DNA of 64,000 nucleotides from Mesostigma viride (lineage: Eukaryota > Streptophyta > Mesostigmatophyceae > Mesostigmatales > Mesostigmataceae): NCBI GenBank assembly GCA_009746045.1, contig RPFO01000079.1, positions 6,736,953 to 6,800,952 of the forward strand, in the 5' to 3' direction. Positions within the stretch are counted from its first letter, which is position 1; each line of letters begins with the position of its first letter. Under the pieces are notes generated by a model. That model was given only the letters and a program-made list of their open reading frames with translations, ran no database searches and was not told the DNA's origin. Shown here piece by piece: positions 6,501 through 59,502 of this stretch. A program made the position numbers and the translations under genes.

Positions 6501-9500
6501 TATCGTATCATGAACCCTCCTATTCGCATCACGGTGGTTATCGTATCATGGACCCTCCTATTCGCATCACGGTGGTTATCGTATCATGGACCCTCCTATT
6601 CGCATCACGGTGGTTATCGTATCATGAACCCTCCTATTCGCATCACGGTGGTTATCGTATCATGAACCCTCCTATTCGCATCACGGTGGTTATCGTATCA
6701 TGAACCCTCCTATTCGCATCACGGTGGTTATCGTATCATGAACCCTCCTATTCGCATCACGGTGGTTATCGTATCATGAACCCTCCTATTCGCATCACGG
6801 TGGTTATCGTATCATGGACCCTCCTATTCGCATCACGGTGGTTATCGTATCATGGACCCTCCTATTCGCATCACGGTGGTTATCATATCATGAACCCTCC
6901 TATTCGCATCATGGCGGTCATTGCATCATGAAATAGGACCGCACAGCTGCCACTGGCTTCTTTTTCTTCGCTTGTTTGTTTCTTCGTGGGTCGGTGTCAG
7001 CGTGGTTGTGTGTCTGTGCGTGTCTTTTCCAAGTGTGCAATCGCCTCTGTTCGTGTAGTTTGTGTACATTTCAATGAGACGCCCAGCGCTGGCATATGCT
7101 TGCCTGTTTTGGATGGTGGTCGCGTGCCATGCGCCAGTGGGACATGTTTCTGCTGTCGGTTGGTCATGCTGTTGTGCTCGTGCTTCCTTCGCAACAATTT
7201 TGCCTCCCAACGTGTTCCCCCTGCAAAGCGTGCCGTGCATCCTGACATGCTGTGCGCCAGATGGTGTGATTATACTTATGCTGTCGTGCGCCCGTGTTTT
7301 CCCTTGGCCCCTGCCTCCCACCTAACATGCCGTGCCCCTTGACAATGGTCCCAACATGCCGCGTGCCAGTTGTTCCCTCCCACCTTGCCGTGCAGCGGTT
7401 GTTCCCTCCCAATGTGTCGTGCGCCGGTTGTTCCCTCCTAACATGCTGCGCACCCGTGTGTTTGTCTATGTGCGATCATCGCAACGTGCCGCGCGCCAGA
7501 TGGTGGCCAAGCTACGGGCCAACTCGACCCGCTGGTCGGACGCGGTCATCGTCTCCTCCCAGTTTGAGCGCAAGGTCGCGCCACCTGTCATGTTCGTGGC
7601 CCAGATGGATACGGAGGGGATGTATCAAGTGATACTCATGCACACCACCAAGGTGAGCGGGGCTACAGTCATGTTCGGGGGACCCTCATCTAGGATGTGC
7701 AGCATGAAGCCCACTGGGCCTAGTCGTGGGCACCGACGATGTGAGGGGGATGCTTATCTAGGATGTGCAGACAAATGTGATATGACCTATCCATGCACAC
7801 CAACATCTTGGTCGCACAGTAGCGGTTTTCTATATCACAGTAGTGTTTTTTATATAAATCGTCTACAGGCCCTAATCTTGGGAGGATCTGCGAGAAGTTG
7901 ATCTGCGCCAGGGATGGGCAAGTCGGAGACGTCTGATATTTGCGGAGAGGCAGAGTACTGGCAGCATGGCATGTTGATCTATCGGTCAAATGAACAGCCT
8001 ACCTGGCACCAAAACCTCAGACGTAAATGGCATGCCTGTGGAGTCGTCTGCATCTTCCAGTAATTACTTGAGTGTCCCTAAACACTTATTCCCAGTCCCC
8101 AGGAGGGTGACCTAGAACTGGAGCCCTGCAACCCAATTGATTCGGGTCCAGCAATTCATTTGATTAGTGTCCAGCAATGCATTTAATTATGGGTCCAGCA
8201 ATTCATTTGATTAGTGTCCAGCAATGCATTTGATTAGTGTCCAGCAATGCATTCAATTAGGGGTCCAGCAATTCATTTGATTAGTGTCCAGCAATTCATT
8301 TGATTAGTGTCCAGCAATGCATTTGATTAGTGTCCAGCAATGCATTTGATTAGTGTCCAGCAATTCATTTGATTAGTGTCCAGCAATTCATTTGATTAGT
8401 GTCCAGCAATGCATTTGATTAGTGTCCAGCAATGCATTTAATTATGGGTCCAGCAATTCATTTGATTAGTGTCCAGCAATGCATTTGATTAGTGTCCAGC
8501 AATGCATTTGATTAGTGTCCAGCAATGCATTTGATTAGTGTCCAGCAATTCATTTGATTAGTGTCCAGCAATGCATTTGATTAGTGTCCAGCAATGCATT
8601 TAATTATGGGTCCAGCAATTCATTTGATTAGTGTCCAGCAATGCATTTAATAAGGGGTCCAGCAATTCATTTGATTAGTGTCCAGCAATGCATTTAATTA
8701 GTGTCCAGCAATGCATTTAATTAGTGGTCCAGCAATTCATTTGATTAGTGTCCAGCAATGCATTTGATTAGGGCCCACAAAGTGCATTCCTAGAACTACT
8801 CCGGGCAACCTGTAGCTACTAGCCACTGAACCCGCCTACCCCCATTACCACCCACCAAACCACTGCTTCTACATCCCGCGCGAGCAGGAGGGGGGCGTGC
8901 TGACTCAGGGCACCTCGGACTACCGGCGCTCGGTCTCATACGACTTTGGCGAGACGTGGACCCCCGTATCCATCGAGGGCATCAATCGCAAGGTGGGTGC
9001 TCAAATATAAGCTAATCATTTTTTATACTAAGAATGTCAAGGGTTTTCATAACGAAAGTAGTAGTACGACATTTGAAGAGAGTTCTAGTAGGATGTAAAT
9101 CATACCTAAATTGTTCTTTAGTTTAGAAAGTCAACTGTAAGTTCGTTTGTTTAGTGAGGCAGTGGTATACCTAATCAACCCTCCAGACCCTACTCCCCGA
9201 CTCTACTCCCCCGCCAACTACCTGCCCAGACCATTTGGTTTCTGACAGTGTGGCCGTGTGTCCTTGCAGTTGCCCTCGGCGATGATTTGGCTTTTCCAAG
9301 ATCCACCCATTCTAACGCCCACCCACCATTCATGATGATGATGACGATGATGATGATGATGATGATGATGATGATGACGATGGTGATGATGGTTGCTTTC
9401 ACGAACTAGCCCACTCACCTGTGAAATCATATTCATCCACCCATTCTTACACACACCCATCCAACGGCCCATCCACCCACCTGAACTCTATCGTTTCTTC

Positions 9501-58100: not shown

Positions 58101-59502
58101 CAGCGCACAGTCTATAGTACAGTCTGTTTCTGGTCACAGGCCCGTAGGTTTTCCTGCGCCGTGCTCCCCGGCAGTGCCCCGACACTGCACACCGCACTAT
58201 CCGCCAGTGAGCCCTCCCAGGGTGCCAGTCACCCCCTCCCGCAGTCCCCTTTCTGTCCTCGGTTCCACTCACTTTCTCACGGTCCCCCCACTCCGTCCTT
58301 TATGCATGACTGCAGCCTGCCTCTCCCGACAATCCTTACAATACGCGTGCTGCGCTGTTTGCTCACGGGTATGTCCATCGTGTGCACGTCCTGCCATTGG
58401 TCTACAACAACCTTGTTTGCATGGCGGCAGTCTGCCCCAGGACCAGATCCCCCGCCCGCTGCCGAGCAGCTTCTTCTCATCCATCCAGGTCGTATCCGGC
58501 GCGTCATCCGCCAAGTGGACCAGGTACGGATGGCAGAAGAATGAAAGTGGACCATGTACGGATGGTAGAAGAGTGAAAGTGGACCAGGGTCGGATGGTAG
58601 AAGAACACAACAGGTAGAAAGCCATGGCTGCGGTTGTGGAGCAGTATCTGATTGGGGGCCAAGGGGTGCGCCAAGAATGAAGGGGCTGCGCCATCACCAG
58701 TGGATGCGTGCCATTCTGTACAGAACTTTACTCAGTAATGTCAATACTGCGTGAGTGCACGAGCGTGGTTTGCTTTTTTGTCAGCAGGTGTTTGGGAGGT
58801 TTTAGGAGAAATGCCGAGCGCACGCATGTGTAATCCTTCACCCCCCTTCTCACGGCATACATCTCATTGGTGTGATTGAGATTTTTGCAAATAGCGAAAG
58901 GTTACAATGCAAATAGGGGAAGGTGACAATGCAAATAGGGGAAGGTGAAAATGCGTTTAGGTTGTCAGTCTCCTGTAGAAGCGGGAGAAAGCTGGCCCCC
59001 AAATGGGAGTTGGACGGAATACCATGGGAGGTAGGGGGCTCGCGCCGCTGAAGGCACAGTCGCCTGCCCAAATCTTGTTACCATCTCGTGCTGTATGTCG
59101 GGCTTGAAGCAGTGGCATGCGCCCAATTCTTTTCATTTTTGAGAGAATGTGGTTGAGGTGCATGGGCGATGTCGCATCCCTAAGAAGCCCCCCTTTTCTA
59201 TGTTTTGGTGGTTTTCAAGGTTGGATGTACCATCTTGGACCTGCCCCCCGGGTTGTTAACGACGGCGCCCTCCTGTATTTCCGACTTTTCATTCGCCGCC
59301 CACAACCCGGCCTGCCCCTTGTGTGTGTCATGGATCCCTGGCCGCCCATGAAACCTCTGTCCACAGGGATGGCTTTGCCTTCAAGGCCACCGATGACAAA
59401 GTGGTCCTCCAATACTCCACCCACACGTGCGCGGCGTTCTATGCGTACCGAGGGAGGGAGCCGCTTCAGCTCTGCACCGAACCAATACTCGCAATCACGC
59501 AG
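55126..59502 (+). CDS. Unrecognised secreted protein gene, at least five exons (3' end not found)
   Basis: Exons: 55126-55256, 55376-55494, 57862-57934, 58431-58523, 59367-59502. The phases agree throughout (552 nt, 184 codons). Residues 1-30 form a signal peptide (ASATFCIAAILSLLLSSCRG). The mature part has several Cys (NSCSLSTRDD, SCKLRSEHG, ETNCTFTLEDCVSDVCYSF, YSTHTCAAFYAYRG, LQLCTEPI) and an N-glycosylation sequon, NCT. I do not recognise the family. The order and phase fit make a real gene likely, but no domain supports it. A further exon encoding FLLDPRYYAGNLILDRE may lie at 60139-60190 (+); it needs an intermediate exon, of length 2 modulo 3, that I could not find. Introns contain 13-bp, 6-bp and 23-bp arrays. 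A secreted or lumenal role is the only inference. Confidence 0.5.
56196..56410. repeat. 13-bp minisatellite in intron 2
   Basis: About 16 copies of CCTTGCCAACCTG with CCTCGCC variants. It gives artificial CLANLPCQPALPT frames. Confidence 0.95.
56990..57270. repeat. (CACTGA)n array followed by CGCCCA and CA repeats
   Basis: About 17 copies of the hexamer CACTGA (to 57096), then CACGCC units, then CA/CG dinucleotides. A simple-sequence composite with no coding meaning. Confidence 0.95.
57400..57775. repeat. 23-bp minisatellite, about 16 copies, in intron 2
   Basis: The unit is based on TATAACCAATAGTACCCAAG with CGT. Some units are shortened (CAATAGTTG). It ends about 90 bp before the exon 3 acceptor. 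Confidence 0.95.
58515..58610 (+). repeat. 32-bp tandem copies of the exon 4 end plus donor
   Basis: GTGGACCAG then GTACGGATGG at 58515 is the exon 4 boundary. It recurs at 58547 (GTGGACCATGTACGGATGG) and 58579 (GTGGACCAGGGTCGGATGG), each followed by AGAAGA and TGAAA or AGAAGAAC. The first copy keeps a GTACGG donor. Confidence 0.85.

Follow-up and report, generated by a model that had tools for sequence, protein, structure and literature searches.

What makes the introns of Mesostigma viride carry extra copies of the ends of their own exons? In a stretch of 64,000 nucleotides (nt) from contig RPFO01000079.1 of assembly GCA_009746045.1 (positions 6,736,953 to 6,800,952, hereafter the window), the introns of a sialidase-like gene, a KDM1/LSD1-like gene (KDM1 below) and a secreted-protein-like gene contain repeated pieces of the adjacent exon together with its splice site. 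The initial annotation of this DNA read these as boundary-spanning tandem duplications arising near splice sites, perhaps by slippage, R-loops or break repair, and as a suggested main route of intron growth. The copies are confirmed here; they run in direct orientation and mostly in tandem, they occur at an equal overall rate at boundaries and inside introns, and they lack coding constraint. We consider it probable that introns undergo frequent short tandem duplication that is blind to boundaries, with copies straddling an exon edge being tolerated and exonic ones purged.

Each boundary was represented by a query of 40 exon nt and 20 intron nt, whose best match in its own intron was compared with 200 same-length pieces of other introns. 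In the window, 17 of 64 boundaries (11 donors and 6 acceptors) outscored all 200 controls, against an expectation of 0.32; three of them, the acceptor of intron 1 in the secreted-protein gene (SEC), the KDM1 intron 16 donor and the KDM1 intron 17 acceptor, are weak (scores 25, 24 and 23), and we leave them out of the solid cases. A stricter test, in which the match must cross the junction and the nearest 40 nt are excluded, retains 12 window boundaries, and inspection adds two clear cases, sialidase-like exon 9 (its offset of 35 lies within the excluded zone) and KDM1 exon 6. The comparison of own with other introns had been named beforehand in the initial annotation, and its claim that the copies lie far above chance holds for the window and for neighbouring genes alike. 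For the latter, 220 kb upstream were examined, 70 kb of it N, with an exon finder trained on the window genes. On its own training genes under loose settings, this finder recovered most internal exons with exact ends, yet it changed first and last exons, broke up three KDM1 exons, shifted one acceptor and proposed numerous false exons, some of them on the wrong strand. Under tighter settings it gave three genes, an NPC1/Patched-like one rich in introns, a kinesin-like one and a coiled-coil one, all named from their translations by reading. In these genes 16/84 boundaries outscored all 200 controls, and 127/404 intron 60-mers outscored all 100 of theirs. The same background fills the introns of the window, where 139 of 402 intron 60-mers outscored all 100 controls (87 of 326 when only the downstream part was searched), as against three of 81 exon-interior 60-mers compared with the downstream intron and none of 93 compared with the upstream intron. 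The interpretation turns on this contrast between intron-interior and exon-interior sequence, and not on the boundary matches by themselves.

The full set comprises 88 introns and 176 boundaries, most of the boundaries on one contig and about half of the introns modelled ab initio; low-complexity matches and introns too short for the test are left out of the counts, and intron anchors sharing one intron are not independent of each other. Across these introns, 127 copies of boundary sequence were found; the 58 that cross the junction (17 of these belonging to the KDM1 exon 12 array) sit at 28 boundaries (20 donors, 8 acceptors). Direct copies occur at 35/176 boundaries and inverted ones at 1/176; among intron-interior anchors the figures are 111/481 and 11/481. 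Homology between the exon and its nearest copy extends over 60% or more of the unit in 22/31 cases (identities 58-99%; median 0.80 of the unit, against 0.29 in controls), so that most are tandem duplications; the other nine show no homology over 60% of the unit. With the nearest 40 nt excluded, the closest copies are spaced at 64-274 bp (median 107), and shorter units of 32 bp (secreted-protein gene) and 35 bp (sialidase-like exon 9) also occur. GT is kept in 22/31 donor copies and AG in 9/10 acceptor copies. The initial annotation is thus upheld in proposing boundary-crossing tandem duplication, copies of different ages and splice sites that are usually carried along.

On the other hand, the view of boundaries as the target of duplication finds no support, since the intron interior is copied as often: local direct copies are found at 35/176 boundaries and 111/481 intron anchors (p=0.40), and donors alone (25/88) do not differ from these anchors either (p=0.28). 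A profile of 40-mers tells the same, with local copies for 145/677 deep-intron positions, 20/89 donor centres and 10/88 acceptor centres, and with a rate that drops into the exon from the donor (10/89 at -20 nt, 5/86 at -40 nt and 3/83 at -60 nt). One stretch counted as intergenic in that profile, 53.65-57.7 kb, has 30% local copies and probably belongs to the secreted-protein gene. Since exon edges and the remaining intron are copied at similar rates, the pattern looks like general wear and growth of introns and not like machinery aimed at splice sites. The claim to a main route of intron growth is tenable, if at all, only for tandem duplication in introns as a whole: recognisable arrays make up 9962 of 68958 intron bases (14%), as against 0-3.7% in four non-genic stretches, a sample so small and so partly transposon-like by reading that we do not build on this contrast.

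In the mechanism that we favour, short tandem duplication would be frequent in introns (with a spacing of ~30-270 bp at boundaries), would sometimes be amplified to arrays and would not distinguish exon from intron. Wholly exonic duplications would be removed by selection on the protein, and edge-straddling ones would be tolerated for as long as the exon-proximal splice site, presumably the outer one, stays in use; the spare copy with its splice site would then become intron and drift neutrally. Replication slippage or unequal repair may be the mutational cause. Intron matches are mostly of high identity (median 97%) and often multi-copy, and boundary matches mostly comprise one or two copies at 86-87%. 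Among one- and two-copy matches, boundaries exceed intron pseudo-boundaries 1.96-fold when all identities are taken (26/174 vs 79/1036), with no excess at identity >=0.90 (7/174 vs 43/1036). Such an excess of older copies at boundaries may be a matter of detection, because the parental exon hardly changes and old copies of an exon edge would remain recognisable longer than old intron duplicates. In agreement with this, exon-anchored copies (n=22) are 83% identical on the exon side and 62% on the intron side, random sequence giving 53%.

Several results weigh against this account. In its simplest form, the frozen-exon model predicts a 2-fold excess among young and old copies alike, whereas we observe none in the young class and a roughly 3-fold excess below 0.90 identity (19/174 vs 36/1036), so that, small as these numbers are, model and data agree only roughly. 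Among intron-anchored copies (n=18, four of them from one young array), identity is 72% on the exon side and 80% on the intron side, which shows no faster decay of the intron side; exon third positions show little extra divergence, mismatches being nearly even over the codon positions (41/345, 41/351 and 50/354, the KDM1 array left out). Acceptors alone are copied less often than intron anchors (10/88 vs 111/481, p=0.015). In a matched pseudo-boundary test, real donors exceed pseudo-donors (21/87 vs 82/584, p=0.024), with real targets that are also longer (median 728 vs 508 nt). Array edges lie within 50 nt of splice sites more often than expected (23 vs 13.9, p=0.0055), a clustering that is weaker at 30 nt (p=0.037) and not seen at 0, 20 and 100 nt (p=0.61, 0.19 and 0.09). 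HSP70 genes on other contigs, whose exons were located from a family search, add to these points. In the first five loci, 7/28 boundaries outscored all controls in the 60-mer test (one being a C run and two weak), and the stricter test left three spanning boundaries among 13 introns, all in a single locus (L028, contig C1801). The next eight loci, a set without the messy locus L037 or the opening part of L031, gave 1/18 spanning boundary (L036, contig C2178; 58 nt, 93% identity) and one intron-only repeat. Spanning copies on two other contigs mean that the phenomenon is not private to the window contig, and the rate of boundary copying varies between loci.

The preference for donors over acceptors, foreseen in the initial annotation, is also present (21/87 vs 9/87, p=0.026), and among 56 arrays seven straddle donors and none an acceptor (p=0.016). 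Selection may account for this imbalance in a refinement of boundary-blind duplication, to which we give about an even chance: duplication would be uniform, and acceptor copies lying upstream would be chosen under the AG-scan rule, harm the mRNA and be lost, while copies spanning donors would be tolerated. Five arrays near acceptors end 10-29 nt short of the AG, and the local-copy rate dips at -40 (6/82) and -20 (8/85) before acceptors, as this refinement would lead one to expect. However, eight acceptors do have spanning copies, and with AG kept in nine of ten copied acceptors the penalty on acceptor copies is not absolute.

The largest and clearest boundary duplication of the window, in KDM1 intron 12, raises another possibility. 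Its 66-bp unit is built from the last 30 nt of exon 12 and the donor, and the array holds 18 intact ATG/GTGAGC donors, of which one has the sequence of the exon and 17 an array variant that differs from the exon part at three places; the exon form is found only in the exon itself. Since the 17 units share a variant absent from exon 12, the template of the amplification seems to have been the intronic copy and not the exon. The order of events can be read from the array: exon end and donor founded the unit, its intronic copy changed, and it seems to be this copy that was then amplified. A tentative and rather unlikely generalisation would make 5' splice sites the birthplaces of intronic minisatellites in this lineage, with units founded on exon end and donor, later amplification of the intronic copy and introns growing from their 5' ends.

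That splice sites, chiefly donors, concentrate breaks, R-loops or slippage and so seed intron growth appears unlikely to us. The donor/acceptor imbalance among copies and arrays, the array edges near splice sites and the excess of real over pseudo-donors all speak for such targeting, but the overall boundary rate equals that of the intron interior and acceptors are not enriched in the matched test (9/87 vs 61/452, p=0.49). Furthermore, the seven arrays that overlap splice sites compare with 7.3 expected from random placement, and the donor excess is absent among matches with more than two copies (3/87 vs 34/584) and at identity >=0.90 (4/87 vs 27/584). R-loops, which the initial annotation had offered as a possible cause, find no support in the sense-strand GC skew of intron arrays, which is near zero (mean 0.028; 39/73 array rows positive, overlapping rows unmerged).

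The copies could also be functional, as tandem alternative exons or donors that vary the protein, which we regard as very unlikely. Two cases favour it, the KDM1 array, whose intact donors accompany an in-frame open unit that runs for 514 codons without a stop, and a donor copy in the kinesin-like gene. In the latter (locus L002, ~601-640, minus strand), the donor copy of a kinesin exon (..TEVDKLRDE) contains an internal CAG and is predicted as an in-frame 39-nt exon, a possible instance of exon birth by boundary duplication; this pseudo-exon is left out of the copy survey of the 88 introns and of later counts. Elsewhere, with the KDM1 array set aside, splicing at the copied site would shift the reading frame or run into a stop in 37/41 spanning copies and leave it open in 4/41, and the flat codon-position mismatches argue against coding constraint. 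The proportion of donor copies that keep GT is about what neutral drift at 13% mismatch would leave (an estimate). Coding alternative exons, whether mutually exclusive or tandem, are therefore rejected for most copies, with the KDM1 array and the one kinesin copy as possible exceptions, and the copies otherwise look like sequence that drifts neutrally, as the initial annotation had supposed. Templated insertion in random orientation at breaks, with nearby DNA copied in the course of end joining, is extremely improbable, as is a dispersed element of introns, for although the nine nearest copies without unit-long homology would suit insertion, the direct and inverted counts largely refute it and boundary sequences match better in their own intron than in the 200 sampled pieces of others.

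The features on which these analyses rest are collected in Table 1. The KDM1 exons named in the initial annotation are renumbered there (donors of exons 4, 6, 8, 10, 12 and 18, acceptors of exons 15 and 16); its sialidase-like exon 6 case stands, with an acceptor copy (9804-9856) present as well, and the KDM1 66-bp array (41690-42897) is not listed in it as a boundary duplication.

Table 1. Genes, copied boundaries and tandem arrays of the window (positions of the 64,000-nt stretch; TRF, Tandem Repeats Finder)
Feature	Position	Strand	Remarks
Sialidase-like (BNR_2) gene	3527-15817	+	10 exons, unbroken 573-aa frame, Pfam BNR_2 5.7e-32
Sialidase-like exons 1-5	3527-3712, 5875-6048, 7500-7652, 8888-8992, 9528-9603	+	
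Sialidase-like exons 6-10	9918-10025, 11374-11483, 12214-12273, 14346-14531, 15254-15817	+	
Sialidase-like intron 2 array	6155-6932	+	38 bp x 20.5; touches no boundary (background of the same process)
Sialidase-like exon 3 acceptor copies (exon start 7500)	7245-7266, 7349-7372	+	AG kept in both; offsets 239, 130
Sialidase-like intron 3 array	8137-8771	+	23 bp x 27.3; touches no boundary (background)
Sialidase-like exon 6 acceptor copy (exon start 9918)	9804-9856	+	46 exon nt, 76% identity, offset 105
Sialidase-like exon 6 donor copies (exon end 10025)	10133-10194, 10236-10262, 10337-10366, 10460-10496	+	10236-10262 is 27/27 identical
Sialidase-like exon 7 donor copies (exon end 11483)	11627-11655, 11698-11719	+	
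Sialidase-like exon 9 donor copy (exon end 14531)	14553-14572	+	Offset 35; score 34 vs control maximum 21; placed by eye
KDM1/LSD1-like gene	53524-32022	-	22 exons (53524-53321 to 32057-32022), open frame
KDM1 exon 4 donor copies (exon end 50374)	50304-50205, 50159-50108	-	48, 28 exon nt; 82%, 85% identity
KDM1 exon 6 donor copies (exon end 48327)	48257-48223, 48148-48126	-	Dropped by stricter test
KDM1 exon 8 donor copy (exon end 46436)	46322-46344	-	Retained by stricter test
KDM1 exon 10 donor copies (exon end 45248)	45187-45155, 45085-45054	-	Retained by stricter test
KDM1 exon 12 array, intron 12 (exon end 42871)	41690-42897	-	66 bp x 18.3; TRF and alignments
KDM1 exon 15 acceptor copies (exon start 39166)	39253-39238, 39373-39326, 39427-39400	-	Retained by stricter test
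KDM1 exon 16 acceptor copies (exon start 37651)	37735-37714, 37888-37865	-	Third stretch 37862-37806, intron part only; retained by stricter test
KDM1 exon 18 donor-region copy (intron start 36058)	35896-35948	-	Mostly intron part, 74% identity; retained by stricter test
Secreted-protein-like gene, last three exons	57862-59541	+	Rebuilt from sequence
Secreted-protein-like exon 4 (58431-58523) donor array	58513-58605	+	32 bp x 2.9, TRF; begins 11 nt inside exon, donor included

The KDM1/LSD1-like protein matches Pfam Amino_oxidase (1.5e-78), its best PDB matches are human-type LSD1 chains (E ~1e-82), and three stretches of its amine-oxidase part, which cover several junctions used in the tests, can be aligned with human LSD1. 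A Pfam search gave no match for the secreted-protein-like gene. Sialidase-like exon 8 has a GC donor (GCAAGT, 12273-12275), unique among the 32 modelled donors of the window. Amid these repeat-rich genes lies an apparently single-exon Nudix hydrolase gene (27142-27711, PF00293 4e-14). Four further stretches, 17700-18960, 20640-21730, 29640-30840 and 31200-31640, are alike by eye, share runs such as CTGCTGCTGCTG and GTCGTCGTCC, and are probably degenerate copies of one dispersed element. At 54279-54770, a 247-bp tandem duplication (two copies, 97% matches) contains an inverted-repeat-like motif (GGCGGAGCCAATTTTCGG / CCGAAAATTGGCTCCGCC), and an endonuclease region resembling that of a long interspersed nuclear element, judged by eye, may begin within 62650-64000. 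Outside the window, a predicted 2774-aa protein (P2, loci L020-L022) reads by eye as a combination of RND/Patched-like membrane, fibronectin-type-III-like and esterase-like parts. The HSP70 genes are old paralogues with hardly alignable introns and 4-fold sites that differ by 15-50% depending on the exon, and we draw no estimate of intron turnover from them; in the cluster on contig C1580 (L024-L026), L024 and L026 differ by 9.5% in exon 2 and by 25-36% in their other exons, which suggests gene conversion.

Tandem duplication at exon edges has precedents. According to the account of the potato RdRp gene (PMC4974935), a single boundary-crossing genomic duplication made a new, RNA-supported intron. 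As in that report, the tandem units described here cross an intron-exon boundary and carry splice signals along, but potato shows one acceptor-side event, whereas here many events, mostly on the donor side, lengthen existing introns and no new intron is evident. In human duplicated genes, internal tandem repeats at exon-intron boundaries are described as underlying 27 intron modifications (PMC2812944); the minisatellite units of ~30 bp at boundaries that alter intron structure are alike, although the human cases, as presented there, are limited to genes in recent segmental duplications, with coding exons containing half of the repeats. In two green algae, tandem repeats are reported to be densest in introns and near intron-exon junctions (PMC3887541), so that intron repeats close to junctions have a published precedent in green algae. 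The intron-dense repeats and the enrichment near junctions (at 50 nt, weaker elsewhere) found here agree with that survey, which is statistical and, in the parts considered, does not say that the repeat units include the exon end. We found 33 chlorophyll-binding matches, and one LHCII-like protein matches 649 PDB sequences, headed in order of summed score by two multi-domain LHCI chains of 9vfj and then by single-domain chlorophyll a-b proteins; because these proteins look green, the repeat background is probably the published green-algal one. Local tandem duplication also changes introns in Drosophila, where intron gain and sliding are reported to arise from it (PMC2891723), but the coding duplications described there, which hold a proto-splice site, give new intron positions. 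The AGGT model of exonic duplication (Rogers) does not apply, the 58 spanning copies containing intron sequence beside a pre-existing splice site, and introner elements are rejected because own-intron scores exceed those of the 200 sampled other-intron pieces, no genome-wide search having been made. In the portions consulted of the literature on tandem repeats of introns and boundaries, we found no report of the recurrent inclusion of exon ends in repeat units.

These copies carry a warning for annotation, as they mimic exons and fooled the exon finder used here; splice-aware aligners have been reported to invent introns between repeats (PMC10632439). From an evolutionary point of view, a single genome here displays many stages of intron growth by tandem duplication; the exon ends provide references that hardly change, and each copy amounts to a paired experiment on how a spare splice site is used or passed over. 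The donor bias, if upheld genome-wide, would link splice sites to the birth of repeats, and minisatellites born at donors, if that reading is true, would expose a steady supply of spare donors and potential micro-exons, as perhaps in the kinesin-like gene, to selection.

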